From Phorcus lineatus (taxonomy: Eukaryota; Mollusca; Gastropoda; Trochida; Trochidae): DNA of 64,000 bases. The stretch spans positions 40,360,054 to 40,424,053 of the forward strand of contig OV121094.1 in assembly GCA_921293015.1 (NCBI GenBank). Reading direction: 5' to 3'. This document shows positions 1 through 64,000 of this stretch, piece after piece (positions within the stretch are counted from its first letter, which is position 1; each line of letters begins with the position of its first letter). The notes beneath the pieces are model-generated. The model was not told the DNA's origin, made no database searches, and saw nothing but the letters and a program-made list of their open reading frames with translations. The position numbers were made by a program, and so were the translations under genes.

Positions 1-238
1 CATACACTAATGATATTCACGTAAATACTTTTTATCGAGATTTGATATGAAATGGATATTTTTTAAAAAGCAGTTGAATCTTATTTGATTCAGTAGCGAT
101 GATAAGAAGTGATAGTGCGAACAGAGGTATGTATAACTGCCAATCCTAAAAAGAGTTTATCTAATATATTTGTGAAAAACAACAACATTAATTTAGGTTT
201 GCTTTTTCTTTATTCAATTATTATGTTTTACACTCAAT

Positions 239-294
239 CAGGTTTGAGTGCAATGCCATACTGAGTTTCAGCGTGGTACCACCCATGGTTCGCG
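239..294 (+). mobile_element. Fragment of SINE core domain
   Basis: About 55 bases closely match the central part of the full SINE at 44,331-44,646 read in its sense direction. The shared stretch includes TGAGTTTCAG and, a few bases on, ACCACCCATGGTTCGC. The tRNA-like head and the GTGA tail are missing, so only the core survives. It is either a truncated old insertion of the same family or another family sharing this core. Confidence 0.6.
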
Positions 295-1959
295 ACAAAG
301 TTGCTTATGATCAGAAATGTTTCTGAATGTTGGTGACAGCAACGATTAAGCATGGATAATTTGTTTTGCGAATCTAAATTCAATCTAAATAATAATCAAA
401 GAATGACTTAATATTAGTTCCTATCATTATCAGCTTTTGGAAATATATGCCTTAAAAAAATTCATTGTTTTCTAATTGTATTGCGATAAATTAAATTTAT
501 GGAAATAAGTAGAAAAAAGCTTAAAATAGATATTGCAAATTGCAGAACAACACAATGACAACACAATGGCAGACATATGTAACATCTTTTCACTTTCCAT
601 TGATAACCAAATTTCTTTTATTACATACTTTTGAACTGTTCAGGCGTTAATATATTTGACTCATCTTAGTAAGATAGTATGAGACGTATAAATGGAAATA
701 ATTAAAAACCTGACTGAACAATTCTAACTAATTATATATAATGTGAAAAAAATTAAAAATAATTGTGAATACTTATAAATCCACCATATAACCATAATGC
801 CCAGAGACCCACTAATGACAGAACATCAAATGATTAGATTGCTCTCTAAAAATTCCCCTTTTATACGGAATGGTTATTTATTTTTGCGTTTATACATTTA
901 CATTCTGATATTAGAAATTATAAGTTAATTGTTAATAAGAACACTTTAATTTGTGAAGTGGACCTACGTAATGCGTCTGAGTGTTCTATTGAATGATAAA
1001 CTTGATAAATCTTCTTCGCTTTGACGATAACTGATGCTGATTTGTAGGTACTCTTATACAATCCAAAATTTAGATCAGTATTTGTTTAACAAAGTAATAT
1101 TGGAGGAATGCCATTGAAATCCCACGTTTTAAATAGCCATAGTCTTGATAACTGAAGGAAATATTTATGTACCTTTAAAGGCATTGCAATCAATGTTTCA
1201 ATATTATTATAGTAATAGTTTCTGACAGAAAGTAATTAGAAAAATATAAACCTAATAGTAAAGTTATCTGTGCATCACAGGTTATTTTCATCAATTCAAC
1301 TTGTACACTTATGATATGTCGTTTGGCAATTGAAAGAACCGAATTGAAATGTCAACAGCAAAGTGGTGTGTCAATTAATACTTCGTTTCATACATTTCCC
1401 ATTTTTACATTTTATAATTAGAGTTGACCTGCCACCAAGACTACGTGAAAGTAGTCACTAACTTATATACAATTCTCGTTCCTACCGAATGTTAATTTGT
1501 AAGGGGCTATGAAATAGACTTCATTGAAACTGTGTGATGGGTTATTTATAAATCTGGAAACACGATGAATAGAGATATATTCTGACTAAAGAGCCCGCCG
1601 AACTGACTCAAATGTTAAGAAAGCTATTATCTATCGCTAGGTTTCTTCGTTTCTATAAATAAATACTTATATTGATATGATTTTCATTTCGTTCAGATTT
1701 GCCTCTGTGTATATGTATATGATTTTAAACAATTATGTCGACAGATAGAAAAATAAATATTTTTGTCCTTTTTATGATGTAAGTAATAAGATAAAGATAA
1801 TAATGATCAAAACATTACCCACCACCAAAACCACAAACTGCCAAGTACGTTATATAGATAAATAACGCTATTGACACTTTTAAAAGATCATAATTGCAAT
1901 GCCCGAAATAGTTTCGCCATGATATAGCTTTCAAATTATATTCTTCATATCTTGCTGTG

Positions 1960-2117
1960 CTATTTTTAGCCCTGCTAGACAGTCATTAGTTGTAACAAGT
2001 CGGAAATGAAAGTATGTCCTTAGATGTTGACATTTACTTTCCTTGATGCTGGGTTTTATTAAGCTTATCCAACAAGAGACCCATTTGCCAGGGAAAGGGA
2101 GAGTTTATGTTAATTAA
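1960..2117. other. Strongly conserved block, copy A
   Basis: This stretch is present in all three units. A 37-base run at 2,045-2,081 is identical to 24,560-24,596 and 48,597-48,633, well above the similarity of the surroundings. The next bases, ending in GAGAGTTTATGTTAATTAA, are also kept. Small length changes just before the run differ between copies (CCTTGATG, CCCTGATG, CCTGATG), so a single reading frame through it is not preserved. It could be a regulatory or RNA element, or a young repeat. No known family is recognised. Confidence 0.5.
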
Positions 2118-3414
2118 AGAAGAAGTTATTGGAAACCAAAAGCATGTGTAGAAACCTTATCAATGGATTTGCGTATGTGTATATTACCTTTTTAAAGAAA
2201 CATACATTCCTCTCAATTCGATGTTTTTTAGACAAGATTGCACTTAAACTGATTGACCAAACTAACGAAATGGCGCATAAGCTTTTTTATGGTTCTTTAA
2301 TATTTTTCGAAAGTAACAGTGACTGCTTAATATCATAATTAATCAACCACTTCAATTTCCCTTTTCATAATACGCAATAAAGGAAGGATTTCAGGGTTGT
2401 AAAGCAGTTGATATCAATTCTGATGCAATTTGATGTTTTTAACCTCTCAACTAAAAGATCAGCACATTGGGTAAAGGTTCAAAACAATAATTTCTTTCTT
2501 TAAAGATAAATTTCCAGCAGATATCTAGGATATGTAAGGATATGGAATCTTTGATTGGTGGTATGTCTGAGGCTACACAGTAGAGCTTGTTAGTATACAG
2601 GAATGGGTATGGTATGGTATGGCTGACGTTTGGCGACCTCCAGCATGTTGTGCGTTTTAGTGGCTTAGGGTAAGGTTAATACCAACTCTAGTCTATTTAA
2701 TATATGACAATCTACCTGGTTTATATCATGGCTTTCGCGAAAGATAACTTGCATTATTCTCGCATTTTAGATGTAGCATATATGACATTCTAAATAAGTC
2801 TAAAATATTTTAATATTGTAATGAAACATTGAATACATTGTCCATGAAGAAATATCATATATGATGATAAAATGTGAACCACCCAGTTTACATGATCAGT
2901 ACCAATGATTTAGCTCATCACTGGAGAGTGGAAACGCTAGTCATAAATTTGATACCAACTGACGTGCACTTTGTATATTAGAGAGCATTTGGTGCGAGTA
3001 ATCCTATTGAGATATTTGGTCTAGATCCTCATGCAATAAACCATGATGTAGGAATCAGCATCACATCAGTCAAATTACTTTTGCCAATACTCTAAATGTT
3101 ATGAAATGTTGAAATGGATCAAATCAATTGTCAATACTCTATAACCGTGTGATATTATGTACCCAATCAAATCCTTGGCATATTTGGGAAGTGAAAATAC
3201 TATTTCTACTTATTTTACTTAGATTTAAAAATTTTAAAAATGATTCACATACCATCAACATAACCGATAATTCTGTACATTCATTATAGTAAATCTCATA
3301 TTTTTTTTATTGATTTGTATAATGATCTCTCCACTTGATTATATATTTTTTATAACAAACATGATCTGAATATTTGTAAGTGTTGTGCAACCAGTTGAAT
3401 TTATTCAACGGTAA

Positions 3415-3422
3415 TGACGTCA
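3415..3422. promoter_or_regulatory. CRE-like palindrome TGACGTCA
   Basis: A perfect cAMP-response-element octamer. Others lie at 8573, 11825, 12228, 15331 (inside the transposon), 26157, 29451, 49649 and 62865. At this base composition fewer than one would be expected in 64 kb. No adjacent promoter is recognised, so function is unproven. Confidence 0.3.
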
Positions 3423-4643
3423 TAATGTTGTACTACTTTTGCAATCAGCTGATTTTGTGCAACGAAAGTGCATGCTGTTTCAAATTGTAAAAGTTGAATA
3501 TGATTGTCATGTTCTCAAATGAATATGTTTGTTTTTAAGAAATATGTATATAACTGAATTAAAGCACTATTATCTTTCCTTTTTTAATTTAGTCATGAAA
3601 GTCTTATCTCCCATTTGTTTAAACAATGCTTAGTTTGACAAAACAAAATCCGGCATGAAGGTTAAATGCTTACGTTGAGGAAGGCAATACATAATCACTC
3701 ATTAATCGCCATGACCGTGATACACATGTACATATTTCACAATATCAAGCTAAACTCTTGATAAATCCAGCATGGCTTTTTGTGTGACAATGGTCGTTCA
3801 GATCGTTAAGGTTGAATGCTTGGCTATCTCTGTCAATGTAAATTTTTAGAACGAGAGTGCCTGCTACGTCTTCGTGATTTGATAAATGTGGTATATTAGG
3901 TAAAAAGTAAAGAGAAATGAAATGAAAAACGGGTCTATAAAGGCCTATGTAGATGTGTAAAGCAGAATAATATTGTGCGATCTACTAAAGTCATGCATGT
4001 ATGTCCACTCATAACGTAACAATTTTATTGAAAAACTGAACTGAAATTGTGACCAAAAACTTTTGAAAACATGTTGCGTAAATGACATTCATCTTCTATC
4101 AAATGTATTATTGACAGTAGATGGATCGAAATCTTCGAGTCATTCCTCGAAAATTGAGAACGAGATTAGCATACAAAATCTACAACTGTACATGTTGTTC
4201 TTAGTTTTATAGTGTTTTAGTTTACATAAAAAAAATTCTGTTTTAGTTATTTCTGTTTAGTTTTTTGATATGTAATTGAGCTATTGTACCTAACAATACA
4301 GAGTGAAGTTATCTATGTAAATGTAGAGTTTTAAGTTACTTACTAATGTTATTCGAAAACCATCTACGAACACGAGAATTACTGCAGAATCTACAGAATT
4401 CCAAAATAATTCTGGAAGAACATATGAGCCAAAGTCATTCAAGCAATGAAAACAAGCAGCAACTAAAAGATTGGGTACTTACCATGTCAACAGCCCCAGT
4501 GCACAAACTGAAGCCCATTACATGCTACTTCCAGGTTTGTGAGGAAATTTTACAAATGTAAGCGTCTATTTTAAATTTCTGTCTGAGTTGCTAGAATTAA
4601 CCTTGTATTCAAGACAGACATCAGACACCTGCCTAATAAAAAT

Positions 4644-4738
4644 GTGAAATGTCGGAAATGGAAGCATATGAAAAGATTGTCGGTGAACTAACTAATGTTT
4701 TGCTGTTACATTTTACTCTGTGAACTCTTTCAGCCATT
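4644..4738. other. Near-identical 95-base block, copy A
   Basis: It matches 51,732-51,826 with only three differences counted by eye, while the flanks are much more diverged. No copy is visible in unit B. Both strands contain a short open frame: plus begins MSEMEAYEKIVGELTN, and minus contains SSPTIFSYASISDIS. Two of the three differences change the plus protein and all three change the minus one, so coding is not demonstrated. It could be an exon, a conserved noncoding element or a gene-converted tract. Confidence 0.4.
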
Positions 4739-6714
4739 ACTGTTTGTTCAATATAATTCAATAGCATCCTTTTGATAGATTTAGGTTAATTAAGAATTAT
4801 GATTACTTTGTAAAACTTTGTAAAACTTTTATTTGATAAAGTAATATTTTCAAGGTTGTTCCATTCAAAAGTTATACCCTACTTAATTCAATAATTAAAA
4901 ACCACATATTCTACCAAATTGAAACACATTTTAAAATGACATTTATAAAATAAGTTTTAAAAATAGAACCCTTTTCATATATATATATTCTTTCTTATTA
5001 AGTAATTATGACTCGTGTACTTATGAGGTGAAATATATATGATGCAATCCAATCACTGAAATACACTTGATTTTTTATAAATCCTTACAAAACTTCTGTC
5101 ATATAGACAATTTCAACAAAGAATACAACTGTAATCCTGTATAATTGTGGCGGAATAATTTTGTTACGTTACATGGACGATGCGCAAGGATATTAAAATG
5201 CAGATAGCTGGAGGTAGGTTTATTATCAAATCTGTTGTAGCAAACATCTTTTTAAAACTGAAATCATCTCCATATGTTTTAAGTTTCTAATCGAATGCAA
5301 GATAAATTGACAATAACCTTATACTTTGTTTGGTATTCTTTAGGAAATAATAGCCTTTGAAGGACCACAGTACATTACATAAGTTTCGGCCCCCCTCTAA
5401 GGAAATGAAATCTGTTTGGCTGTTCGATTAGAGGCCTTTGGTATTTCTTTTTAGCTGGGATTTTTTTCATGCTGGTGAGACTCAAAATATACGAACTGAG
5501 AGATTCAGCTAGCTGCTGCATAAAAATAACTACAAAGATAATATGTAAGCTTGAAGGATTGCACCAAATTGTTTGTAAAGCTGAAATTCAATGTTTATAT
5601 ATTAGAATAATGTGTTTTATTCAAATGAATAGTTAAATAAATGATTATTTTTTCTAAAAATAGTAAACTTATGCTGATATGATATTCGATAAGGGTCATG
5701 ATGAATCGATGGCTTTCATGTTTATATACACCAAAAAAGGAAATGAAATGCTTGTGTGCACACAATCTATATTCTATTTTAAGTCTTGCAAACAATTGTT
5801 CCCAAACTGTACTCTACCCTATTTTTTAAATGGTATAGTTGTTAATTACAATTAAAAAGGCATTCTGAAACGAGGGTTGCTAAAAAGGGGTCTTGCCAGA
5901 TGGCTTTGTCTTTGACAGTTCACTTTTCATATAGCAATTTAAGACCCGTTAAGATGAACTCATTCTGATGGCGTTCTGGAATCATCGCTGATTGGCCTGA
6001 GTTCAAAGGTCAACTGCCACCTCTTTTGATTTGTTTTCAGATCCGAAAATGAAGTAAAGCGCATGTGATAAGCTCTGCATTATTTTCATTGAGATTGATT
6101 AGAATTGTACAATTGCTTAGTTTTTCTCATATATTGTTGCACTATTTGACATTCTCCTGTACTGATGATTGTTCTGAAAATTTATTTGTTAATCAATTAG
6201 TTAAAGATTGTAGAATCAATCTCATTAATATCACATCTAACCTTACATTTTTTAGTTATTGTACGACTCCTTGGCACTTTCACCACCTTTTACTTCAGGC
6301 AATCCCCAGGAGATGTACTTGTACTTTCTAATGATAACCTATATATAATCCCGTCATTCAAATCTCCTACCATTTCATAATTGATGTTTGACGTGGCAAT
6401 ATCACTTGTAACCATCATTGCAATCAAATTGTACTAACACTAAAAGAAATCATTTATGCGATGTTTATTTGAAAGATAATATTAGTTTGGGTTTACTAAT
6501 AAACTCATCTGTATGCTTTTACGATTTGGCAATGTAAACTCTCAACAAAATTGTACGGAAGCAAGAGCGAAAATACATTATTATCATCTCAACAAATATT
6601 AATGCAGTACTTCTTCAATAAACCTATTCGATGGGGAGAAACTGAAAACCCCATCTCATTTGTGGCACTCAAAAGTGACCGACCATGTAAGTATTTATAC
6701 CAATTTCTTGATAG

Positions 6715-6800
6715 CAGAGACCCTGGTGGTAAACATGGTCACTTAGTGTATTTGTGTCAGAAGGTGCAAGTAAACTTATTGAAATACTTTCGGTCGACGT
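6715..6800 (+). pseudogene. Exon-like block L6, copy A (degraded)
   Basis: Third and most damaged copy of the block at 26,445-26,565 and 53,180-53,306. It keeps the acceptor-like TTTCTTGATAG and the start RDPGG, then loses about 12 bases and shifts frame. On the minus strand the adjoining sequence still reads RVSAIKKLV before a stop, as in the other copies. No product is assigned. Confidence 0.3.
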
Positions 6801-8774
6801 CTTGACATTTACCATAATTTTGAATTAGAGTGGTCACTCACTTTTTTAAGAATTTGATCAATACACTCTAATTCACAGTGAAAACTCAATATTTTAAAAG
6901 CACGTAATACTGTCCACCATGAAATGCATGATACAGCAATTTCAGAATATGAATATTTCTTAAATTATTAAAACTTAATTATGTCTCCAAACGTGAGATA
7001 CCTGAGATCTGGAAAGATAATAATCATTCAGTATGTAGGATACCTTAGTATGTTCCATCCTACATCAAATGTTGAACGCACAATGATATAAATCCTTATA
7101 AGTATCAATCTCGAAAAACATCTCATTACTCGCTTGTGAATACGATTCCTCTTATATATCAGTTGACTCCTTCTCTTAAAGAAGTCGGGCAGTTGATACA
7201 AACTCACCAAACCAACTTTGTATGACTCACAGATTTATGGAAAATGTGACATAAGATAAACAATAGAGTCATTCAGCCTATTGCTGAAACCTTCTAATCA
7301 AAGCAATATTTGAGGTTGAATGAATTATATTTTGCGATATTTGGCTTAATTAATTATATGACGTGACCTACCTATCATCAACACTTGCATAACTTGAGTA
7401 TCTATAAAGGGTCTATTTAAAGATAAAATAACACGGAAAATCTACCTTAATTTTCGAATTCTCTCTAGATGAAAATCTGAACCGCAGCAAATATGAATGG
7501 CTAACAAACAAAAGATCACATATACAATTCAATTATTCCAAGTGCACAAATTTATGCTCAATTTCATTATTTTATTTAGGGAAACTGTTTGGTTAGACCT
7601 AGTTTGGCCTATTATTACATTATAATTATATGTTTCAGTAATTAACAAGGTATCTAGTACCATCAGTATTATTAGTAGCTCACATTGTAAGAAAACGTGG
7701 TTAGTATACCCATGAGAACATCTCTAAAGCGTATTAGAGAGAAACATAATCCCTTCCCAACTTGTTATTCTTTGGAGATGAGTCATCCTCAAAGACTGAT
7801 CACTTAATGACTTTTCGTTCAATTGATTTTTCATATATTTGATACATAAATCAGTTTTGCCATTCAAATATCTAATTCAAAGAAATCATGACTACAAGTA
7901 TTGCAATCATAAATTTGGTATAAAGTTAGAAGGTTCATTTTGCGAAGCACTTTAATTTCCTTCTGTTTTCAATATAAGATATTATGCTTATCATAGCTGC
8001 AAAATTGCATGACGTGGTGGCGTCGCGTTAATAATGGAAAGGCAACACTGTTACAGTCAATTGAATACCGTTCCTGCTGTTAGGTGCAGCGAAAATGTCT
8101 GCAATATTAATATTTTTCAAATCTCAAAGAAGTGTCCCTTTTGCACTTCAGATGTCAAATAAAGTATCTATTTGATATAATATTAACAATATTTTATTGG
8201 ACAACTGTCAACTCATTGACTGACAGATATTCAAATCTACATGAATATGACTAAGATAAACTTAGGTAAACTTTAATATTATCATTGTCTACCTTATATA
8301 TTTTGTTCAGATTAAGTACATTTTGGATGACAATATTTTTTCATGGAGATAATATACCTGCAAGCATAAAAGTGACACAACGTAAGATTAACATATTTAT
8401 TTAATATTTGCAATTGCCTAATAGTAACAATATCATGTTTTCTATACAATCCAATGGTTTAGTCGCGTCTTTCATAACACGTTATATCCTTCACATCTGT
8501 TGAGTAAGAACAATGTAGTTGAAAAGTAAGAACCTAACATAACTAATGTGTTATGTATTTTAAAAGTGAGTGTGACGTCACATATTTAAGGAACGCTATG
8601 TACATTCTTAAGTTTTCGATATCCTTTTCATAAAGGAAGGAACTATTGACTGATATTTACCATAAACAATAACCAGCTTTATCTTGATTTCAAGAGTAAT
8701 CATGAAAGACCTGTGAAAACAATTATACTTTCTTAGCACGCCGCATATGCACCATAATTGAAGATGGAAGGTGA

Positions 8775-9193
8775 CAGCAACAGACGGTTAGAAGAATTCA
8801 AATATGCTCTACAACAATCGGCCTTCCCCCAGAGTATGATTGGCAATGGTATTGGAAAGGCAACGAAACACACCATTCTAGAATAGCGAAAACCAGAGAA
8901 AAAATAGAACAAAAACGTACAATAGCATTTGTAAGTACTAATCAAAACAATCCTAATATGTACCCTAAACTTAAGCCTTTTAACAGATGAAAACAGCTGA
9001 AAAGTATGCCAGAAAAAAACCCCCGTCATTGCAATCAAACGGCCATCAAATAACTAGCGCAAAATTTAGCACTAATAGCACTGAAGGTGAAGTCACAAAA
9101 TGCCAGGATGAGAGATATGGTACCTTACCTATCATTATTATATTGACGGCAAAAACCTTGAGAATCGGGAAACCTTTCAAGTTAAACACATAA
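8775..9193 (+). other. Possible two-exon coding remnant with 56-bp intron
   Basis: A frame is open from 8775 to the TGA at 8988-8990. At 8931 there is a consensus donor GTAAGTACTAAT and at 8977-8986 a consensus acceptor CTTTTAACAG, giving a 56-bp candidate intron in phase 0. Splicing would join EKIEQKRTIAF to MKTAEKYARKK and carry the frame on to 9193. The unspliced frame is also open almost to the acceptor, and other frames are open here too, so this may be coincidence. No copy was seen in units B or C and no family is recognised. Confidence 0.2.
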
Positions 9194-10089
9194 CGAATTG
9201 TAAATCTAAAAGTAGTTAATGCAATTCTCTGCCTTAAATTCAATCTTACCTACATAGGCCAAACGAGTCCTGGTTCACTGAGAACAAGCTAATGACCCAA
9301 ATTGCCGCCGTCAGAAGATAAGTAAACACACTGTGAAAAGAAACAACGGGAATTTTACTTCTCTCTAATTCAACAACGTTTATGCAAAGTCATAAAATAC
9401 AACTATAACTCTTGAAACAAAAGAAAAACTATAACCTCATACAAGTCTACATTTATACATGTAGATGGATAATTGAGATCTCGGACATTGGTTGCCAATC
9501 ACGTAATGATTCCCCTAAGCCTCCCTAATTGGGTATGACTCGAACGCAATGGAGTTATGGAGCATTGGCGAGTCTGCATGGTCTCAATTATCACTGAAGG
9601 ATAGGGGAGTGAAATAAGACAAGCATGTGCCAAAACATCACAATGGTAATCGCTTCCTTCTGTGAGCTAACAGTTCAGTGATGGACATTATTTGTTGATA
9701 GAATTTTCTTTTGTTTCAAGAGTTATAGTTGTATTTATATATGCAATTGATTTTATTATGTATGTAATTGTTACATATTATTTTTATTTTCGATGTCTAA
9801 TTTTAAAAAATATAAATGCAAAACTAAAACAAGTATTGTCGCATACAAACAACCTAAATGGAGTGGCATAATTCTCAACTTTGTTTTATCCTAATTTCAT
9901 AATAATGTATAAAGAATACTAAGAATGAAGGTATAATGACAAGACACATTAAAAAAAGTTATTTCAAGAAACAAGATAAACAAATACAAATCTAAACATA
10001 AAATAGATAAAATTCATCACACATAATATGTGTTAAATCAAATCTATTTAGCTGAGCATTGAGAACTGACATGTTTTAGATACCTTTGA

Positions 10090-10260
10090 GATTTCTTTTT
10101 GGTTGAGAATTCTGTTTTGATAATGATTACAGACGAAAAGAAATATTCACAAGAAAGGAAATGAGAGGATCAAATAGTTGCTGCATCAATTGGACTTCAA
10201 AGACAAAGTGTTAAGCTGGCGCTTTTGCATCCAAATTGATTGTAAAACTGTAATCTAAAA
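10090..10260. repeat. Extra copy of duplicated landmark
   Basis: This matches about 5,450-5,640, 25,500-25,690 and 52,500-52,690. Shared features include CAGACGAAAAGAAA-type sequence, GAAAGGAAATGAGAGGATCAA, AGTTGCTGCAT and TTAAGCTGG further on. As the second copy inside unit A, it suggests that unit A is composite. Confidence 0.6.
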
Positions 10261-10540
10261 ATATTTATGCGCTGTTTACATGATGTTTTTTTCGGACTGC
10301 TTGATGTTTCTCCAATGAATTACGTTTGCCCAGGAAAGCGTGTTTTATTCTCATTTCAAAGGATGCAGTAAGCCCATACACTACTGTTCTATGATTACAA
10401 TGTATACTGGAAAAACCTATTTGATTAATGATTATCTATTACTTCACTGACACACTGTTGAAAAAAAGGATAAATTTCCGATATCTCTTACTTATTCAAT
10501 CTAGACTAGCTGCAGTTTTCTTTCATCTCACAAATGGACA

Positions 10541-10565
10541 TATTATTATTATTATTATTATATAT

Positions 10566-10615
<50 letters not shown>

Positions 10616-10650
10616 ATAGTAATAGTAGTAGTAGTAGTAGTAGTAGTATT
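10541..10650. repeat. ATT and TAG trinucleotide microsatellites
   Basis: A run of ATT repeats is followed by about thirty TAG repeats interrupted by a few AATAG units. Reading it on the minus strand gives an artificial polyleucine frame. Confidence 0.95.
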
Positions 10651-13230
10651 TGATCCAATATATTGAAGGGAAAGTAGCACTTTTTGCAGATAAATAGAGT
10701 GATCTCATTAAACAAAAATAAGAAGCAGTTCTAAATTGTGCGTACCATATTCAGTTATTCTTCGCTGATCAATTTTTCAACCTCAAATGATTGAAAGATG
10801 GCAACACCAACATTGCAACGAGTGGTTTTGCTTGATATTTGATACTGATAATTCTTCAGATTACTGGGTTGAGTAATGGAGTATTGAGGTGTCTATTTAA
10901 GGATTTTTTTTATGTATATCTAAACTTAGCACGAAAAAACGTAGCACGTTTACATCGTCTTTGTTTTTCAATTAAAAAATATCTAAACTTCCAAAGAGAC
11001 AAGGAATCTTTATCCAATTCCAATCATCTGTATTTCTGAAATAGACTTTTAGGTAGCAAAAACTTCAACCCGAAATGTGTTTGAAAATACCTCGTTTTAA
11101 TGAAATAGATTACGTAAGCTTAAACGAACATGTATTGACTTAAATTGTTGCTCTTGCAATTGTTAACACTCGTTTTCATATTTCTTTTAGTGGGCTACCC
11201 TTTTTTCTTTTGTTTATTTACAAAGCATGCTACAGTGCTTGTCATAGCAGCTGGTCATATTTGGAATGTCGCATTTACAAAAACAACATCTTCTGGTGGA
11301 ACAATTTACTACTACTAACCCTCTTGATGCCTCATTCTGAGTAAAAGCCAATCCAGAATGTTAAATCGAAATAAAATCTACTAGTAACTATATGGAGTAA
11401 CAGACAAATGTTCAATGTATCTAATACTTAATTTGACATCTCTATAATGGCTTCTCATTCTCTTTGACTTAAAAGAAATGTTAGTATAAGTTCAAATATG
11501 GGAAAGACTATATATTCCGATTTTGGTTATTAGAAATTTAGACATATTCAATACCTGATCCATTTATGTTTTGCAAACACATCAACATTTCTTTTGTTGA
11601 AAGCATAAAGTCAATCTTGAACAAACCTACAGAGAGAAAACCATAAATGAATATCAAGAAAATTACCTCTTTTTTAACGATCAGATCCGACCCTTCATTT
11701 GCTGTTAAGAGAAGTGCCTAATATTGCAATATTTGAAAATAAACGGTCTTGATAATATTCTAAAGGCATAAGAAACATAATAACCTTGTCAATATTTCAA
11801 ACTACATCTCAGTTCCATTTGGAATGACGTCATAATTTCATGGTATGGTCATGTCGTCAGTTTTAAACATGGTTGGAGTTGTCATAAATACATGACGTCT
11901 TGAAAGTTCTATCTTTCTCTCTTGATGCTCTTTGTCTTAAAGATATTATCAATCATATGTGAGTATTTGATGGTTTCCCAGCAAAGGTGTTATGACATGA
12001 TAAATGCTTTTGTGTTCTACATTTGTACCATATTTGTACTATAGACTGTAGCCTTTAAGTATTGAACACAGTTATTATATGAGTCAGTAAACATGGTTGA
12101 GCTTCACTTCTCTTCTTTTTTTCGTTTCATTCATTTTTTCAACGTGCGAGCTAAAGAAGTGTCGATCTCTCTTATTAAAATTTGGAAATCCAAACAATGA
12201 AATAGAAACGCTAATCACTTTATTCATTGACGTCAACACATTTTGACAACCAAACAAACTGCAGGTTATATTTTGAAGAGATGTATAATTTAACACCATT
12301 ATGGAATTTATCCTATGAAAGGGTAAAGGAGAACGCACTATGGATACCAACTATGTAATTATGAGAAAGGTATCTTAAGGGATGGAATATAGAATAAACA
12401 TGTGGTGATTCATTCCATAAACGACATTTGTTATCTACTAGTATAATATATCTACAGAGACATCATTGGTGAAGCACTGTACGTTTTCTCTCCAAACGGA
12501 ATGAGTCCAGTCAGTTATACACAATAAAACTTGCCAATGGGCTTATTACAGTTGATCAATGTCAAATAATTTTTATCACTGTATCTGATTGCATGGGGTA
12601 TCACTTCCTGTTACCACACAGTTTCTGTTGTAGTCCTATGAAAGAACATCTACTCAGCTATATATATATGCTGCTTTATATTTACAACAGCAAATGATAC
12701 AATGGGAAATCTGGTGACATCAGCATAGTGTTGACTGTCAGAAATCTGATTTTCCGTTGTTATATTACTTGTACAAGTTGGCGTGTAATTAAATAGTTTG
12801 TCTGCCGGTAGAGCTTCTCTCTGGCTTTCAACGAGTAAAGGCCATGAAAAGAATACATTTACGATTAAAGAAAGTTTTAGACAAACAAAACAAATTGACT
12901 ATATATTTCCACCCCGATTTCGCAATACAGTAATCAAGCATATTGTGCTATGAAAATAGGAAATCCTTACTTTTCATGACTCCCTGTTAAACACATATCT
13001 TAGAAAACAAAAAAATGGTAATGGTTTGAAGTTTTTGCAGAGTTCACTATTGTCATTTTTAAAAGAAAATGCACTTAAGTCATATACGGTAATAATGGTT
13101 TAATTATAAGCACACACACATACAAATCATTTAAAAAAAGAATTGATCTATTCCACTTCTATTGAGTTCACCCAATTAGGCTATTTACAGTTGATAAAGC
13201 AATCGAATAAAAAAGAACTGTTTGATAAGC

Positions 13231-13391
13231 ATGAGTTATGATGTGTTCAATAGTATCGATAGTCGATTCAGATACAGGACTGACGCTCAGATAAAAATGA
13301 GGCCGGATGAATGAAAGCACTAAATAGGTATCGAATTCTTGTTTGGTCGATTTGTTTGGCCATGGTCTAGAGCTTGCAAGAAAAGAACGAA
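13231..13391 (+). pseudogene. Plus-strand exon-like block P1, copy A (frameshifted)
   Basis: The first part reads SYDVFNSIDSRFRY, matching SYNEFNRVDNRIRY at 59,557-59,748. A deletion then shifts the frame, and the end realigns in the original frame as VSNSCLVDLFGHGLELARK against VSNYCSVDLPGHGLEIARK. Amino-acid similarity on both sides of the lesion supports a decayed coding exon. No family is recognised. The minus strand is also open here (13,168-13,398), so strand is not fully settled. Confidence 0.4.
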
Positions 13392-14118
13392 GCATCATCG
13401 CGATTAGCCATAATATTATAAAGCTATATTTAATCTGATATTGTATTTATGTGTTGTACACTATAAACGAAACAATGAGATATAATCGAATGATTATTTC
13501 AAAGACAAGTGATTACTTATGGGCATTTATAACCACGTGAGCGTTGCTGTAATGTTACCTTTTGAAAAAAATCTGCAGTTTGGTTAATAAAGCTTTTCGA
13601 AATCATTATATAATATAATATTTTGAGACATCTTACTGTATTCATAAACACCTCTTAATGCCTTAGCCCATTGAAGTTACAGGTGTTGACTATTGATCAT
13701 AGGCACACCGAATATCATAATTTTGATCGAAATAAATTGTGGAAGGAGGAAAACAATTAGTTCAGAGAAAATAAATTATGGTATAAATGAAATGATATAT
13801 AACATTTGAAAAATCTTTTTCCATAATCATGTGCATGGGACTGCTTCATACAAATCTAGTTTTGAGTCTTTGAGAAATGTGTGGACATCTGTCCATAATT
13901 TACTTTTACTTTTTATAGTGTTCCATTGCATATGGATGATAGGACATGCAAAAGGCTTTAGCGCACTTATGTGCTTTTCGGTTTGGGTATCAACTAAAAT
14001 TCTATTTCCAATAGTAGAAAGATAGAAATTTGTGATTCACTACTCGAAAATAAGATAGGAAAATATATGCTGACCAAAAAAAGTTAAATCTAGAACTACA
14101 GTTCCTCAACTAAATCTA

Positions 14119-14144: not shown

Positions 14145-14199
14145 ATTTTATTTTTATTTTGTAAAATATTTCGGGGAGTTAGATAATTTTAAGAAGGTG

Positions 14200-51600: not shown

Positions 51601-51731
51601 CTATAACATGCTGCATTTCCGGGATTGTTAGGTGATTGTTCAATAGTTAGCGTCTATTTTCATTTTCTGTCTGAGTTACTAAGATTAACCTTGTTTTGGT
51701 GACATACATCAGACAATTTGCTGAACACATT

Positions 51732-51826
51732 GTGAAATGTCGGAAATGGAAGCATATGAAAAGATTGTCGGTGAACTAACTAATGATTTGCTCTTACATT
51801 TTACTCTGTGAACTCTTGCAGCCATT
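51732..51826. other. Near-identical 95-base block, copy C
   Basis: Partner of 4,644-4,738, with three differences by eye. Looser similarity extends about 180 bases to the left, back to about 51,550. Confidence 0.4.
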
Positions 51827-52889
51827 TCTGTTAGATTATCGTATTTCTATAGCAAACATTTGGTTGATTTTGGTTAAGGGGAAATTCCAGTTAATTGTTA
51901 TTACTTTATTTAATTATTATTTAAGTTTAATTTATGTTGTAAGGTTATTAAGTACATAATTCAAACGATATATAACATAAGCAAGAATTGCACACAAACT
52001 AACGAGCACGTTATGGAAATGAAAAACCTTATTCAGAAAAAATAAGGTCAGAACTGTTATCAGATTCGTCTTAACCGCTGTAAATCAACAAGACATATTC
52101 TCTAAAATAGAAATGGGAAATGCCTTTTTAAAAATTTGACTTAAAATATAACTTATTATTATATTATTATAGAACCTATTTCATTTGTTAGTACTGTAAA
52201 GAAAATTCAATCAATAGTTTACATTAATGCTTACAACGTTATTATCGAATAGAACATTTCAACATAACATAGAACAAGACGGTGATATTTTGCTAGTTTA
52301 TCAAATGATGGTTATTATTCCAAACAATGAGGGAGTCAAGGAAGATGCAACTTGTCAACTACAGAAATTCCACAAACAATTTGGTATCATTTAAGGATTA
52401 ACAGCCTTTACACTGGCCAAAGTACATTTTCGACCCCCTCTTACGGAATGAAATCTGTTTGGCTGTTCAATTAGAATTTGCGTGTCTATGAGGCCTTTGA
52501 TATTTTTTTCACTGAAAATCCTTTTTTGATGCTGGTGAGGGACAGACGATATTCGCTGGAAAGGAAATTAGAGGATCAAGTAGTTGATGTATCAAAGAAA
52601 CGCCAAAGTTACTATGTAAGCTGGAAGGATTGTAACAAATTGTTTGTGAAGCTGAAATTAAATGTTGACGATTTATTTGAATAATATGTTTCTTTCAAAT
52701 GAATTACATATTTTTCGTTAAAGAACATATTGTGTATTTAGGTAAAAGTCAATGTATTTTATGTCCTTATACTTTTAGAAGAGAGTACGGAGTATTTGAT
52801 TTTGGGAATACGTTACTAGGAATCCGTGTGAGAATATGAAATATACATACATATATATATTTTCGAAGACAGTTGCTCGTAGTATTCTC

Positions 52890-55494: not shown

Positions 55495-58400
55495 AACGCT
55501 ATATCATTAGCAACACAATGTATAAGTTGCCCTGATGATCACCATGTTGTGAAACCGGTTGGTAGTGAACTTATATGAAGACCAATCTTCAGTTTGTTAT
55601 TTTTAAAGAATATTTGATACATAAACCATGAACATTTAAGTTTTACATCTATTTATGTCACGTATATATGTATGTGACAACATGATTTAGATGAACTCTT
55701 TAGCAACTGACTCCCGAGAATCTTGATTCCTAATATGTCTCCGCTTAAAAGACAGTTCGTTTCTGCGTTACTGCAGCTTATAACTGAGTAACTAATTGTT
55801 AGAACAAGCTTGACAGGTCACCAGTAAGAGCCGTAGTCGTGCCTTTTGTACAAAATTTGCATAATTCTACATATGTCCACAGATTTTCCGTTACATGACC
55901 ATCTTGTTCATAATTCGAACACAATTTGTTTGCATTTAAAGCAAAGTGACACATTTAAGCAAAAAGAATGTAAAGATGGATGTTTTTGTTCTTCAGTCTT
56001 TAATGTGCAGAATTTCCCTATTTATCCCTGAAACCTTTTTTTGCATGTTAATCACAAACTAATTTTGAAGAATGTTAAAAGAACTTCAGCATGCTCTGAT
56101 GTATTGTCCCTTTTGTATGATCTGTAACTGGTTTGTGTATTCTAGACTATACATAATACTCAAGTCAACATTGAAATATACCTGGGCTAGGTTAAACCTC
56201 TATGGTTACTTTTTTAAAAACATGACTGAAGTCATGACGCAACCAGGAAGTCATATCTCCTCAAAGATATATATTTGTTAGCTTCATCAATAGTTTTCCT
56301 TAATACAAATTCTGTATCTGAGGCTTCCGTGACCAACATTGAAAGCTCTTGTTTATGTACGTAAATATCTTTTCTAATCTGTATATCTTTAAAATTTGAA
56401 AGAGTTAGTGAATTATAAATCTTTTTCATTTTAAACATAAAATGCTCATTTTTTAAACTTATGTCCTAATTTTTCACATTTCATAGAGATCATTCAATGA
56501 GCAACCTTCCTGCTTACTTCTCAGTTTTAAAGTTGTTAGGATATACTATTTCTAAACTGTTTTAACAGTTTTAGTCACTTCATTCATAACATCCCGTCGT
56601 CTTCATAATCAATGTCTCATTGCATTCAATGTGTCATGACTTTTAATGAAGAAATGTGATAAGTGCCGACTTTATGATAATATCAAGTAAGTCTATGAGT
56701 ATGAATTCTTATTCTTTGTAAACCCTAAATTCAATGTTATTGAGCTTTCTCTCTTATTTTGTTTCAATTTCTGTAATTAAAACATTGTTATTCAATAAAA
56801 ATAAAATTGATTTGTCAAAACAGATTAGAGACAAGTTTCAAGTTATGGTAAGTTTCCAGGAAATCATTTGGTCAGGGATTATGACAAAGTCAGTGGTAGT
56901 GGTGAGGCACACTCAATTTTCTGCTTCTCTAAAGATTTTATTACCATCAAATTCAATCAAGAATCTGTCAACACCTTCCTCTGCAATAAGCAACAACAGG
57001 CAATGGCCACCACTTCTCCATCTGTTTGATTTCTGAAAAATGTTTTGCTTAACAGTTAAAGTTTTAGTTGGTTTACGTTCAAATATGTTAAAATATGTTT
57101 TCTGATGATTTTACAAATTATTTTTGACACAACCAATATCTGTTCCATTTATGTAGTGCCAACACATAAACATTGCTTTTGTGAAGCTTGTACAAACCGG
57201 TAGGGAGAAAACCATAAATGAATGTCACGAAAATGTCTCTTATTTTTGGATTGGTCAGATTCGATCCTTCATTTACTGTTAAGTGAAGTGTTCACTATTG
57301 CAATATTTCAAAATAAACGGTCTTGATAATGTGTTAAAAGCATAAGAAATATGATTACCTTGTCAGTTTTTATGATTTGCTAGCACGGTTAAATGGTCTT
57401 TGCTTGAATGGATTTACATTATTAACTTTTTCATTTTTCAAATATCACGGTTCGTTTCTCTGTACCGCAATCAATATTTTAGAGGTGCTTTTGTTGATGT
57501 CAAGTCTCAAGAATGAGAACATGATACACTTTACACTTCAACATACACAGTCACAAAAGTTTAATATACAGAAGTTACTTTCATGTTAAATTGTTCTTGC
57601 AGAAGGCACAGGCATGAACGTTACTTACTTTTATTTTTTTCTTATTAGAAATAAAGTGCATGTTGTTTTAGTTAGAGGTTTCATCATAATTTTCAGCAAA
57701 TTCCCAATTAAATTATTAGAAACATTTTTTTCGGTTCTCAGCAATCTGTGCCCTAGCGTTAAAACATTAAGACAACCAACAAACTGAATCTTATAGTTTG
57801 AAAGTGTACTTATATATACATATATTGAAAGTACGTATCGCCGTCATGAAACTCAATGGTAAAATGGTATAACGCATAAATCATAAAAGAATGCCATCTT
57901 TAATTTAGGGATTAAATAAATACCATATTTTTAGATGATGTTAACGTTTCACACATTTTAGAATAAAGCTGTAGAGATTCATCCCAGTAAACGAGAGCTA
58001 GTAAGATTTTGATTAAAGTATTATTATCTATCGAAACATCAGCATATTTATTGAAAAGAATTGGTTTGGTACAAGTTATCCAACCTAGTGAAACCCTCTC
58101 TTAAGCACTGAACCCAAGAAGATGAAGTATTTAGAATACATGAATATGTTGATAAATTAAACCTAACAATGAATGACATTGGCTTAACACTTGCTGAATA
58201 ATTTAACTCAATAATGAATGTGGTTCAAAAAATCAATCCGATAAACACAGTTATTTATTGTGGTAAATATGCAAACTAAATAACCTTTTTTTTGAAAACT
58301 TTAACCAGTCAAACATAGATTTAAAAGGCATGCACTGCACTTTCAATATTAAAAAAAGCATTTTTATTTCATATATGTCATTACAACCATGCATTGGCAG

Positions 58401-59556: not shown

Positions 59557-59748
59557 TTGATAAGCCTGAGTTATAATGAGTTCAATAGAGTCGATAATCG
59601 AATCAGATATGGGCTAGGGAAACACTCAGGAAAATATGTACTACAAGGCCTGTTATTCGATATACGAATGAATGGAAACACTAAATACGTATCGAATTAT
59701 TGTTCGGTTGATTTGCCTGGCCATGGTCTAGAGATTGCAAGGAAATAA
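59557..59748 (+). pseudogene. Plus-strand exon-like block P1, copy C (open)
   Basis: An open frame of 63 codons reading SYNEFNRVDNRIRYGLGKH, LLFDIRMNGNTKYVSNYCS and VDLPGHGLEIARK. It matches the frameshifted copy at 13,231-13,391 and, more distantly, LTFHIRINGNKKSLSSSC at 61,881-62,062. Three copies sharing positions such as IRxNGNxK, a Cys and the closing AR make an exon remnant likely. No family is recognised and no splice site is secure. Confidence 0.45.
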
Positions 59749-61880
59749 CAAACTAACAACGAGATTGGCTACAATATCATAGAATCATGTTTAATATAAT
59801 TAGTGTAATATCATGTTGTGAACTATTAACGCAACATTGAGGTATGATCGAGTGATCAATGACGAATTCAAAAACATAATCTTATTTATGTGCATATGGT
59901 TTTTTCTTTTGGAAAACTGCAGTTCCGGTTAATCAAACCTCTCAAAACCCGCATGACGTATTATTATGTTAGACATCTTAGGGGATTTGCTTTTTTAATC
60001 TTCTAATTTTTTAAAGTCTTTTTTAATGGCATATCATGTAGATGTCACACGTTTTGACTATTAATCATTGGCACGTACAGAACATCCTAATTTTGAATTG
60101 AAAATATCATGATTTTGATATTGAAAGTAAAAAAAAACCTTGGAAGAGTTAGTTGAAAGAAAGTAGATTTTGACAGCTGGCTGCACTGTCCTAGTGGGAT
60201 CAGATATTGACGATAACCAATCTCATTTATGAACGCAATCTCCTTTAGATCTGAATGAATATCATGAATATCTATTGGCCGTTTGTTAAAAAAAACACAC
60301 AAACCAAAAACAAGTTCTAGCATAATGCATTATGTTTGCACTGAGAGCTAAAGGAACCTTACCCTTTATTTCAACGGTATTTATTTGGTATATGACTTTG
60401 CTATTACATATCATATAAAATTTCGACATGTTGCATACGTGTATAACATCTTCAAGCATTGTGACCTTGTGTTTTTTGTCTTCTGATACCTAACTAACAT
60501 AGTCTGGGCAATAATTGATATATCACTTTTGACTATTTGCGGAGACCCGATAGCCTTTTGTTAAATACACTGTTGTAAGAAAACGAGTGTAACCATTTGC
60601 AAAGCAACCGTTATTAGTCAATTACGAGAGTTGCTAAATGATCAAACTATCTTATTTATCGTATTTCAGTTATGCATGTCAAATTACCTAAGTCATTTGA
60701 AGATATTCGAACTCAAATTGTCACATGAAGTTTTCACTTGATATGTGATGGCTTTCTACAGCTACTGGTATTCGGGTTATGTAAAGACATGTTTGACCTT
60801 TCACTATTTTATGTCAAATCGCGAAACTCGCGAAATCATGACACGAAATGAGACCGTACAACATTGCCTTCTAAAATATATAGTTTAAGTTTCCTCTAAA
60901 TGTCCCACACAGACTATCATCTGAAAAACTGAGGACCTTTGAAATAATACAAAATATACCTCAGCAGGCGAGTTCCGCTACAACCTAGGGTCTTTCTGAA
61001 AGAAAAAAAATCGCATTTCACATTGACGGGTATCAAAATTTTGGCCTTAACACATTCAAATTACTAATCTTCTTGCAAGAAATAAAATACATGTAACTTA
61101 AAGTAACAAAAAGTATTTTCAATGTTTCCTATCATCGGATACTCATTTTTCCAAACTTTCATCTTTTATTTCCTCTGTCCATTCTTATTTTTCCATCCTT
61201 TTTTTCATAAAGGAATAAAATAATTTTGAAAAAAATTGGTTCAACTGCTTACTCCTCTCATGTGTGATTTGAGGCTGCAAGCATCATTTTATCTACTTGC
61301 TTTATTTTATTGAGCAGAAAAAATATTGTTTCATTGCATATGGATGAGATGTGCAAAAAGCCGTAGCGCACTTTATTTATTATTCTGTTTGGGTATCAAC
61401 TCTTACTTCTGACAGGGCATTATACAGGCGACTGGCTTATTTAGTGGGAGACATTCCGGACTCACAAACAATTGATGGTATGCGTATTTTGAATATCGAA
61501 AACATTAATTAAAAAGTAATGATAATGCGAAATTTGAAATGAAAAGTGTATTTTTCATCTTGTTCTTTAGAATTACTTTGTGGAATTATATATGATTTCA
61601 AATATACGAATTTCTGGATTGTTGTCGGTTAAGTTTAGACATTTCGCATATTTCTAATATGTTTGTAATAAGGTAGTTTATATTTTTCTGCGTGCATAAC
61701 ATCTGTAACTTGTACGTCATTAACAATTAAACTAATTATTTTGTCCATGATTCTTTGCAAAACCGAGTCAAAACTAGTACATTCATGAACAATATATATA
61801 AGAATAATTATTATCAGAATAGATTGGTATTCTTAATTGATAAATCAATCAAGGAAGTGATTGGAAAACTATGAAAAGCC

Positions 61881-62062
61881 TGAGTAAATATAGTGTCGAT
61901 AATCGAAGAACATAAATGGCTTTGGAGTAAGACTACGGAGAACATTAACTACAGAGGCTAACATTTCATATACGTATAAATGGAAACAAAAAATCATTAT
62001 CGAGTTCTTGTGTGATTGTGCCGCATAATCATTGTCTGAATGCTGCGAGGCAAATACATAGC
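61881..62062 (+). pseudogene. Plus-strand exon-like block P1, third copy (decayed)
   Basis: About 2.3 kb downstream of the P1 copy at 59,557. The frame starts VDNRR, has several stops, then reads LTFHIRINGNKKSLSSSC and HCLNAARQIH in register with that copy. It is a tandem, older duplicate. Confidence 0.4.
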
Positions 62063-63350
62063 TAAACAACATAAGTTATAGTACACGAGAATAATATATT
62101 TAGAATAGCATCATTATCTTGTACAAATGTTAAATTAACAAATGATGGGCAACTGTGTGACTATTGTAACTCAGCAAGTGCAATTATAATTTAATTCTGA
62201 AATGAGTTCCATGGTCGCGTATTTTAGTTGTTTTTTATTCAAAGTTTTGATTTAATTTTTATCTAATACTTTTATGTATGGTGTCATTTCTTGTTCACTG
62301 CGCAGACTTAGTATAACAGTCACAAGAGTATTTTAACTAGTCTAAGTCGCAAAAACCTATATTCATATGATATAAAAAAAGTTGTAGTGACAAACCAAAT
62401 CTGTGCTTTTTCTATTGAATTATCGGTCATGATTAATATTTGAAAATTAGCCCTTGGTGTATTTCAGAAGTGTTTGGACTGGTATTGACATTAAACGTTG
62501 TGAACTTGAATCTGTTTGAGACATCTGCACTGCCTAAAAAGGTTATTTTTTACATTTATTTGATTACCATCAACATTAATGAAATCCATATCCATAAGAT
62601 ATCGACTTGAACCTGAAGAGCACTGACTAAATATTCATAAACCAGTTGGTTTGAGGAGAGAAAAAACTCATAATCAATGGTGATATGACATACGATCACA
62701 TAATTGCACTGCAAGCTCGGGGTTAAGCGAAGGGTTTATTTCGAGAATATTTTAATGTACTTTGACATTAACCTAAAGAGTGAACTGTCTGTATATGCAA
62801 ATGCATGACCCTGCTATGATATTAATGATTATGATACCTGTAAAAAATAATGATGCAATCGAACTGACGTCAGGCCCAAGATATACATTGTTTTGAAAAT
62901 ATTTGGCAATGTGAATAGTTTTAGTTATTTCCTAAATATCAGCAGATTTCTTTTTGAAAAGACATATCTAGACATATTTTTTATATATTTTTTAAATACC
63001 TGCATTTGCTGATGTTAATTCAAAACGTCTCACTCCTTATATAAAACATTCAGCAATCTTTTATTTTCAGTGAAGATCAAAGAACATTTCCACCCATTTT
63101 CAGCAACTGTAAACACTCTTCCCATTTACATGAATACATGATCTCCTTTATTTCACTAAAATTCCATTCATAGTACCTTGTAAATCTTTTGATTTATAGA
63201 TGAGATGCATATATATTCATTCTCTATATGTATAAGTTATTCAAGAGAATCTTCACGTAATAATAAAGCAATACTTTTGTTCAAGATTAGCCGATTTCTA
63301 GTTGTCATATGCAAATAGTATTTACGGTATAAAAAAACAATATATTTTCG

Positions 63351-63385
63351 CATCATCATCATCATCATCATCATCATCACCATCA
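63351..63385. repeat. CAT trinucleotide microsatellite
   Basis: About eleven CAT repeats with one CAC interruption. Confidence 0.95.
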
Positions 63386-63540
63386 GAAAATCAGATAAAG
63401 CAATCACGAAAGCGTTACAATTTTACCTCTTGATTGCTTTAATTTTTTTTTTAATACATAGTCATATAAAGCAAACAGTATATCATTCTTTAATCAACAA
63501 TTGATTATGTTTGACATTAAACATAAATCGATTTTTTTCA

Positions 63541-63897
63541 AACAAGAAACATGGTATTTGATATTACCGATAAGTACCTGTCCTTTCTACCCCGTTCTAA
63601 TAGGTATACTATATTGAAAAAGAGCTGAAATGAATCAGTCAGCTTCCTGATATCCAATTCCCAATCTATACATTTGTTATGAGGCTTTGTCTTAGAAAGC
63701 CATCGACAAACATGAATTACAGTAGAAGGAAGAGATATTACGCTTTGAAGATGAAAAACTCTCAAAGGATCTGTGTGTACAAAGTAAATATGATTCCAAT
63801 TGATTTGTGGTGGCTTGGATATATTAACTCGTAAAACCAACTCTGCTGTTGGAATGTTATGGACGGTGAAACCACTAAATTTGCTATTGGAGGGTTT
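63541..63897 (-). pseudogene. Exon-like block, possible polycystin/REJ-like region, copy C
   Basis: The minus strand is open for 119 codons between stops. It contains SGFTVHNIPTAELVLRVN, KPPQINWNHIYFVHTDPLRV, QSVISLPSTVIHV and CIDWELDIRKLTDSFQL. All four parts match the frameshifted copy at 32,898-33,235 across substitutions and indels, so the open frame is probably the ancestral one. An AG that could be an acceptor lies at the 5' edge. The order of a proline-rich strand, an SLPS turn and a later DW dipeptide weakly resembles the pre-GPS part of polycystin-1-like proteins. No neighbouring exon is visible before the window end. Confidence 0.45.
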
Positions 63898-64000
63898 TCA
63901 TCAACCATTTCAAGGTTCTCTTGGCTAAGGTGACTTTAGGTAGTAGCTGGAGCAAGGTAAACGTAACTTTGTACAGGGAATTGGAAATAAAGTTTGAAAT

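Follow-up and report, generated by a model that had tools for sequence, protein, structure and literature searches.

Ancient tandem duplication of gene-poor, non-coding DNA in Phorcus lineatus, with putative short constrained elements

Introduction

Why should a long array of similar blocks persist in DNA where no gene is recognised? The question is raised by 64,000 nucleotides of contig OV121094.1 of the gastropod Phorcus lineatus, the whole stretch analysed here and referred to as the window. The original prediction described it as an ancient three-fold tandem segmental duplication with an interleaved second repeat type, and proposed either a decayed gene cluster or an array kept for another reason. 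We examined its structure, its distribution in the genome, its coding and RNA content and the way in which its copies have diverged. Coordinates are those of the window, with negative values upstream.

Results

The window holds copies of a single repeating unit

Self-BLAST and chaining resolved three collinear copies in the same orientation (A, B and C) within the window. At E<=1e-10, self-BLAST of the window returned 58 non-self pairs; among pairs at least 3 kb apart, 48 were direct and 7 inverted, with TA-microsatellite matches in both classes. Twenty dinucleotide shuffles gave 0 direct and 0 inverted matches at this threshold, and 20 more gave none at E<=1e-3. After chaining, direct matches formed 24 blocks for A-B, 24 for A-C and 28 for B-C, the chaining threshold being permissive (E<=10) and several chained blocks weak. 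The collinear direct chains, together with the empty shuffles, thus bear out an ancient three-fold tandem segmental duplication. Offsets were 15.7-26.0 kb for A-B, 45.4-47.4 kb for A-C and 24.0-30.7 kb for B-C, a wider spread than the 20-24 and 44-48 kb anticipated.

The Y sequences had been taken for a separate, interleaved repeat, a view that we reject: a further Y copy lies outside the window, immediately before A (-3.1 to -0.2 kb). Y and X together thus form the repeating unit (Y+X), and position 1 of the window falls inside a unit. The three units in and just beside the window are roughly 19 kb, roughly 25 kb and no less than 24 kb long.

1-15,938, + strand: unit 1, window part (X copy A), from collinear BLAST chains; its Y copy precedes the window, the unit starting at about -3.1 kb
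15,939-40,810, + strand: unit 2, Y copy (15,939-20,022) followed by X copy B
40,811-64,000, + strand: unit 3, window part, Y copy (40,811-45,479) followed by X copy C
15,939-20,022, + strand: Y copy 1 (blocks b14-b18), BLAST chains
40,811-45,479, + strand: Y copy 2 (blocks b14-b18), BLAST chains; split by a dispersed repeat at 44,332-44,646

X copy B starts near 20,086 and reaches 33,616 or beyond, and the tail of its unit, to 40.8 kb, carries single extra copies of Y blocks at 35,911-36,118 and 37,719-37,877. X copy C begins at about 45,583, and its homology to B continues past the window to about 65.0 kb. The blocks had been said to account for most of the window; they do span it from end to end, but cover about a quarter of its bases (25%, 23% and 29% in the three successive 20-kb bins up to 60 kb, counting direct paralogous matches to any part of the 284 kb read). 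Blocks within the X copies were located as follows.

1,865-2,212: block b3, copy A, holding the most constrained island
24,287-24,777: block b3, copy B (BLAST chains; genome query)
48,333-48,805: block b3, copy C (BLAST chains)
4,479-4,789: block b4, copy A (self-BLAST)
51,566-51,877: block b4, copy C (self-BLAST)
5,329-5,630: block b5, copy A, with a further copy at 10,032-10,292
25,450-25,753: block b5, copy B (BLAST chains)
52,380-52,731: block b5, copy C (BLAST chains)
11,480-11,797: block b8, copy A (BLAST chains)
28,030-28,493: block b8, copy B (BLAST chains)
57,067-57,531: block b8, copy C (BLAST chains)
13,222-13,494: block b10, copy A (self-BLAST)
31,370-31,697: block b11, copy B (BLAST chains)
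31,886-33,226: blocks b12+b13, copy B (BLAST chains; genome query)
62,147-63,886: blocks b12+b13, copy C (BLAST chains)

The two b4 copies are 82% identical, including an identical run of 55 bp, and no b4 copy was seen in B. Relatives of b10 occur at 59,557-59,856 and 61,869-62,062, and outside the window at 84.0 and 100.1 kb; those of b11 occur at 13,915-13,995 and 61,167-61,502, and outside it at 71.5 and 92.7 kb.

The array belongs to a larger duplicated region, and three queried blocks are confined to this locus

Related arrays are scattered beyond the window from about -98 to +120 kb, with almost nothing at +121 to +184 kb. Upstream, the Y copies reach -19.9 kb; X blocks are found again at 65.0, 72.1 and 75.8 kb, and the window is flanked on both sides by further tandem arrays, some elements being common, in diverged form, to several arrays. 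Direct paralogous matches at least 3 kb apart occupied 43,188 of 205,000 bases between -98 and +107 kb, against 516 of 63,000 in the +121 to +184 kb control, which belongs to the same locus; known transposon, satellite and microsatellite stretches had been masked by hand. One bin inside the array region, from -40 to -20 kb, was also poor in matches (3.9%).

Genome-wide, b3 (queried with copy B) was found in three places, all in the window, b4 in two and b12+b13 in four. All of these lie at 40.36-40.43 Mb of C29 (b12+b13 at 40.39-40.43 Mb), which indicates that these blocks are not dispersed elements; the restriction to the locus rests on these three queries, since a dispersed repeat swamped the Y query. 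Head-to-tail order and the presence of transposon fragments would fit a long-period satellite or a dead large mobile element. This origin is nevertheless very improbable, given the confinement of b3, b4 and b12+b13, the variable length and content of the units, and the finding of no element protein but a single transposase in the units.

Coding signatures are at chance level

The paralogous blocks carried no coding signature, and alignments with a synonymous excess were about as numerous as expected by chance: in two overlapping sets, 5 of 71 alignments (3.6 expected) and 3 of 93 (4.7 expected) reached P<=0.05. Gap lengths showed no bias towards triplets, 68 of 366 and 85 of 514 being divisible by three. 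A Pfam scan of 42 of the 46 window ORFs of at least 75 aa recovered a frameshifted transposase as the sole protein, besides three sub-threshold hits (E 0.02-0.04). Six-frame matches between units, considered as possible protein-coding exons, fell in several frames and on both strands, as plain DNA similarity does, and the clearest synonymous excess (33,526-33,616 versus 64,932-65,023) contained in-frame stop codons in both copies; both candidates were discarded.

In the flanks, 21 ORFs of at least 110 aa were found by a scan of 264 kb that ran as far as 164 kb and would miss short exons. Of the 11 that were compared with Pfam, one was a GPCR and one a reverse-transcriptase remnant; the remaining nine gave no hit. 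Among the 150 of 354 homeobox candidates that were scored, none was listed within 1 Mb, and the usual kind of CNE target was thus not found.

The suggestion of a decayed gene cluster is not supported, given the chance-level synonymous excess, the lack of a preference for triplet gaps and the lack of any Pfam domain but the transposase in the ORFs scanned. A broader version, in which a decayed or very fast-evolving cluster of small-exon genes left blocks that are introns or flanks of unrecognised genes, draws on the 19-25 kb tandem units with diverged spacers, which are typical of gene families, and on the blindness of the ORF scans to short exons; secreted-peptide genes, moreover, can have diverging exons. 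We consider it improbable in view of the same near-chance coding tests, gap lengths and Pfam results.

Divergence is uneven and concentrates conservation in short islands

Over the five unit pairs, matches were 77.5-79.2% identical and covered 15%, 22%, 25%, 35% and 21% of the shorter unit, the longest match per pair measuring 386-801 bp. Simulations with a uniform rate at 0.79 identity gave coverage of 92-98% and longest matches of 3.3-5.3 kb, and the one setting among them that also matched the gap rate gave 95% coverage. The two uniform settings that brought coverage into the observed range (26% and 33%) had match identities of 0.717 and 0.744.

Over three-way columns the copies are 70-76% identical. 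In b3, A, B and C agree in 77 of the 80 ungapped columns of one island, above the trimmed null maximum of 73. Three-way dispersion per 30 columns reached 24.2, where the null did not exceed 11.9 in 2000 runs; with padded ends trimmed it was 13.8 against 12.7 (5000 runs). In four of the five unit pairs, pooled pairwise dispersion lay above the null (P 0.012, <0.001, <0.001 and 0.003); the upstream pair showed no excess even when pooled (P 0.56). When each match was given its own mean, within-match dispersion was weak or absent (P 0.37, 0.05, 0.11, 0.94 and 0.015). Among the seven families tested for short conserved cores, the clearest were E5, with P<0.0005 over six copies that lie outside the window, and E4 (P=0.0005), followed by E7 (P=0.02) and E6 (P=0.05), while E1, E2 and E3 had no significant core (P 0.18, 0.66 and 0.08). 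The islands thus change more slowly than their surroundings between paralogues, with mixed results for within-match dispersion and family cores. Between the blocks, 12 of 25 gaps of similar length (a count taken from rounded figures) scored more than 3 s.d. above shuffles, which marks these spacers, at least, as faster-changing sequence that the copies inherited in common; the other 13 had no clear residual similarity.

A functionless tandem duplication decaying in a gene desert, its uneven divergence due to regional differences in mutation and indel rate, many indels and perhaps gene conversion, is possible, if somewhat doubtful. It agrees with the lack of any recognised gene or of an Rfam family at gathering score, with within-match mismatch dispersion mostly near the null under per-match means, and with the 13 gaps devoid of clear similarity. 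It accounts poorly for the 80-column island and the three-way dispersion, which beat uniform and within-block nulls, and for the 35-column cores of E5 and E4, which are more alike than their flanks; 35 columns are short for gene conversion tracts. Some support accrues, from the uneven divergence and the short near-invariant cores, to the idea of an array kept for another reason, the function itself being one that we infer.

RNA structure and shared motifs

Another reading is a cluster of tandemly multiplied non-coding RNA genes, whether lncRNA exons or unknown microRNA hairpins. Only b3 was strong among the families (consensus folding energy -27.2), and its copy B folds into a hairpin with z -4.8, none of 200 shuffles being as good. 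The fold is weak in copy A (z -1.2; 22 of 200 shuffles as good) and copy C (z -2.1; 8 of 200), the conserved stretch takes in much of the loop and extends past the hairpin, and Y relatives of b3 lack the 3' arm by eye. Nothing in the window matched Rfam at gathering score, and the 1141 hairpins that passed the same loose filter over 284 kb make that scan uninformative; folding scores of gappy family alignments were unreliable, with absurd z values where shuffled energies barely vary. Such RNA genes are thus an unlikely explanation. Nor does b3 show what a microRNA cluster would be expected to have in each copy, a stable hairpin whose arms are invariant and whose loop is free to vary.

The motif GTCGGAAATGRAAGYATAT, common to b3 and b4, is over-represented in the window (5 occurrences versus 0.13 expected) and found there only in copies of these two blocks. 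Another candidate, TTGACATTT, recurs in several element families but also in the non-array flank, and was set aside as a shared motif; enriched 9-mers were mostly common in that flank too.

Discussion

That the window holds an old tandem duplication of gene-poor, non-coding DNA is, to us, highly probable. The fuller reading, a tandem duplication of gene-desert DNA in which some short elements are constrained, has about an even chance of being right. The odds are likewise roughly balanced that the slow-changing islands are short cis-regulatory, enhancer-like elements under purifying selection, a constraint that would be read from the paralogues only. Gene conversion could also raise local identity.

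A gene-poor segment has been copied head to tail into three Y+X units, and neighbouring segments have likewise been copied in tandem inside a larger region, from about -98 to +120 kb. Under the reading of constrained elements, unequal crossing-over between copies may have lengthened the array, and the spacers would have been eroded by insertions, deletions and point changes. Purifying selection would hold the islands as short non-coding elements, most likely candidate enhancers to which transcription factors would bind and which would control a gene lying beyond the region read. More tentatively, repeated tandem duplications might have built a gene-free regulatory domain of at least 200 kb, in which selection keeps the cores and spacers turn over.

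A gene-less constrained tandem array, if real, would offer replicate copies of elements at one locus; such copies, if constrained, would show at which positions a regulatory element is held fixed and at which it may vary, and would let the growth of regulatory domains be studied. Were it neutral decay, the array would still be a clean case of a long-lived non-coding tandem duplication.

Among known systems, eukaryotic tandem segmental duplications resemble the array, whose 19-25 kb copies likewise lie head to tail at a single locus, collinear and in the same orientation. Annotated examples are typically less diverged; the copies here are 70-76% identical, no gene is recognised inside, and several distinct adjoining arrays share diverged elements. 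Segmental duplications are usually annotated at >90% identity over >1 kb; with about 78% identity in matches and a longest match of 801 bp, the array falls below this threshold and is an old, degenerate segmental duplication at most.

Vertebrate dCNEs are similar in being paralogous non-coding elements with slow-changing cores and diverged spacers. They are described near paralogous genes, many having been single copies before whole-genome duplication, in the relevant passages of PMC2781166, whereas the copies here are in tandem at one locus, with no gene copy recognised. Segmental duplication followed by CNE loss is modelled in PMC4008492, the main text of which does not use the word 'tandem' and which cites Derti et al. 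for the depletion of ultraconserved elements in segmental duplications. A gene-free tandem CNE array was not found in the literature within the scope of our search, outside which most subscription journals lie. Enhancer clusters and redundant (shadow) enhancers are a further parallel, in that several related elements sharing one regulatory domain, as proposed here, would act in a like manner. If the constrained reading is correct, a regulatory landscape would have grown by tandem duplication without gene duplication, in contrast to the duplicated non-coding elements found in print, which, in the passages of PMC2781166 that treat them, adjoin duplicated genes.

Three tandem copies within a larger duplicated region

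Self-BLAST of the window, which spans C29:40,360,054-40,424,053 in an assembly of 957.8 Mb and 74 contigs, returned 58 non-self pairs at E<=1e-10, and these align as three collinear copies (the X copies A, B and C, one per unit). Matches at least 3 kb apart comprised 48 direct and 7 inverted ones, with TA-microsatellite matches in both classes, versus none in 20 dinucleotide shuffles of the window; thus, the three-fold duplication put forward in the original prediction is real. Its boundaries had to be redrawn, since a copy of Y (the block set b14-b18) also lies immediately upstream of A, at -3.1 to -0.2 kb in window coordinates, with others at -5.1 and -19.9 kb, so that the repeating unit is Y+X. 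When 0-60 kb was divided into three bins of 20 kb, each was 23-29% covered by matches.

When self-comparison was extended 100 kb beyond the upstream end of the window and 120 kb beyond its downstream end, other segments in the flanks were also found to be tandemly duplicated, and profile searches with 37 block alignments (E<=0.01) linked the arrays, related block b3 to b14 and located a six-copy element at 86.6 to 120.5 kb.

Units, Y copies, flank tandem pairs and block relatives (window coordinates)
-3.1 to 15.9 kb: unit 1
15.9 to 40.8 kb: unit 2
40.8 kb to at least 65.0 kb: unit 3
15,939-20,022: Y copy
40,811-45,479: Y copy
About -98 to -80 kb and -77 to -62 kb: flank tandem pair, offset about 18 kb
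-79 to -77.6 kb and -45 to -41.8 kb: flank tandem pair
81.5-87 kb and 98.8-105 kb: flank tandem pair, offset 16-18 kb
84.0 and 100.1 kb: b10 relatives, profile search
71.5 and 92.7 kb: b11 relatives, profile search
72.1 and 75.8 kb: b13 relatives, profile search

After manual masking of transposon, satellite and microsatellite stretches, direct paralogous matches occupied 43,188 of 205,000 bases between -98 and +107 kb, a stretch with one poor bin (3.9% at -40 to -20 kb). Between 121 and 184 kb they occupied 516 of 63,000 bases. Whole-genome searches placed b3 at 3, b4 at 2 and b12+b13 at 4 genomic places, all within this locus; these three queries are locus-specific. The Y query was dominated by a repeat at 44,332-44,646, and the known Y copies were absent among the matches listed. 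This repeat is dispersed, with at least 39 other places at 93-96% identity (40 scored of 4679 first-look candidates).

Smaller repeats were also seen: a 68-bp direct repeat at 17,005-17,159 (87 bp apart, 84% identical), with an inverted relative near -49.1 kb; a short element forming an inverted pair at 26,076-26,218 and 29,398-29,538 (80%), with another copy at 107.6 kb; an 89-bp unit in 2.1 copies (96% match) around a TA microsatellite at 34,906-35,090; and, upstream of the window at -13.1 to -11.4 kb and again at -6.9 to -6.3 kb, two blocks of a tandem repeat with a period of about 145 bp.

Uneven divergence of the copies

The copies are old and unevenly diverged. Over 2280 three-way ungapped columns, identity was 70% for A-B, 71% for A-C and 76% for B-C, values lowered by padded alignment ends, with B and C slightly closer to each other than either to A. 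In five unit pairs, BLAST matches had 77.5-79.2% identity and reached at most 801 bp in length, and their coverage of the shorter unit was 15%, 22%, 25%, 35% and 21%. Uniform-rate simulations at 0.79 identity (three replicates per setting) gave coverage of 92-98% and longest matches of 3.3-5.3 kb, or 95% coverage when the gap rate was matched too. In the two uniform settings where coverage fell inside that observed range (26% and 33%), match identities were 0.717 and 0.744. Set against these simulations, the observed high identity and low coverage indicate that rates differ along the unit.

None of 2000 null runs reached the three-way dispersion seen in seven blocks, and in b3 a window of 80 columns had 77 that were identical; after trimming of the padded ends, dispersion was 13.8 versus a null maximum of 12.7, and the best 80-column window was 77 versus a null maximum of 73 (5000 runs). 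Among seven element families, a 35-column core rose above column permutation in E5 (P<0.0005), E4 (0.0005), E7 (0.02) and E6 (0.05), and not in E1, E2 and E3. Of the five unit pairs, all except the upstream one had pooled pairwise dispersion above null; with each match held to its own mean, only one of the five gave P<0.05. Among the 25 gaps between blocks that are alike in length, 12 still show similarity exceeding shuffles by over 3 s.d., and 13 do not.

Coding and RNA-gene content

GC content was 28-42% per 2-kb bin, mostly about 31%, and a single ORF in the window reaches 150 aa from a usual start; it is part of a frameshifted transposase.

14,351-15,398, + strand: transposase, split by a frameshift (Pfam domains)

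Its DDE_3 domain lies in 14,748-15,395 (E 2.2e-14) and weak helix-turn-helix matches, below cut-offs, in 14,351-14,734; we read it as Tc1/mariner-type. Downstream, on the - strand near 140.5-141.6 kb, there is a diverged relative.

The paralogous blocks gave no sign of coding. Synonymous excess at P<=0.05 was seen in 5 of 71 window alignments (3.6 expected) and 3 of 93 flank alignments (4.7 expected), two overlapping sets in which 68 of 366 and 85 of 514 gap lengths were divisible by three. The best coding candidate was rejected for stops within its frame. A Pfam scan of 42 of the 46 stop-to-stop window ORFs of at least 75 aa (of the other four, three overlap the transposase and the last lies within a TA repeat) found no domain except transposase, at a scale that short exons would escape; H_lectin (E 0.019), Baculo_p24 (0.032) and AIPR (0.039) fell below cut-offs and were taken as chance. 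The window had no Rfam match at gathering score, and no tRNA was found in it. A microRNA reading of b3 is weak, since copy B (z -4.8) is the only one with a strong hairpin, C giving -2.1 and A -1.2.

Among 11 of 21 flank ORFs of at least 110 aa scanned with Pfam, which short exons would likewise escape, the sole gene recognised was a GPCR at 161,093-162,232 (+ strand), a single open frame of Srw-type 7TM (Srw/rhodopsin type, E 2.3e-40). A reverse-transcriptase remnant, presumably Penelope-like from its appearance, lies at -48.9 to -47.6 kb (- strand; RVT_1 E 2.4e-5, below cut-off).

A genome search for homeodomains (150 of 354 candidates scored) listed no match within 1 Mb of the locus, the nearest of those listed being at C29:41,801,741, on the contig that carries the window. 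Elsewhere in the assembly, at least 10 homeodomain matches on one strand span about 1 Mb at spacings of 65-158 kb (C17:21,009,457-21,987,645), which we read as an unusually long Hox-like cluster; a tandem array, either of a homeobox gene or of a repeat, accounts for 21 of the 150 scored matches, all on one strand, many of them about 2.8 kb apart and equal in score (C11:13,422,931-13,527,257); and a single 1820-aa open frame holds four (C16:29,348,660-29,351,041).

Proposed origin and comparison with known systems

The array has the structure expected after several rounds of unequal exchange, or of tandem duplication by a replication-based route. Its uneven decay would be best explained by selection keeping short stretches while the spacers turned over. 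Because no coding or convincing RNA signature was found, we hypothesize that the kept stretches are most likely cis-regulatory elements, which would act on some gene.

Vertebrate duplicated CNEs are described beside paralogous genes (PMC2781166), and CNEs have been modelled under segmental duplication with subsequent loss (PMC4008492). A partial literature survey yielded no report of a gene-free tandem array, and we class this locus as tandem segmental duplication, a new example that is old and extends unusually far.
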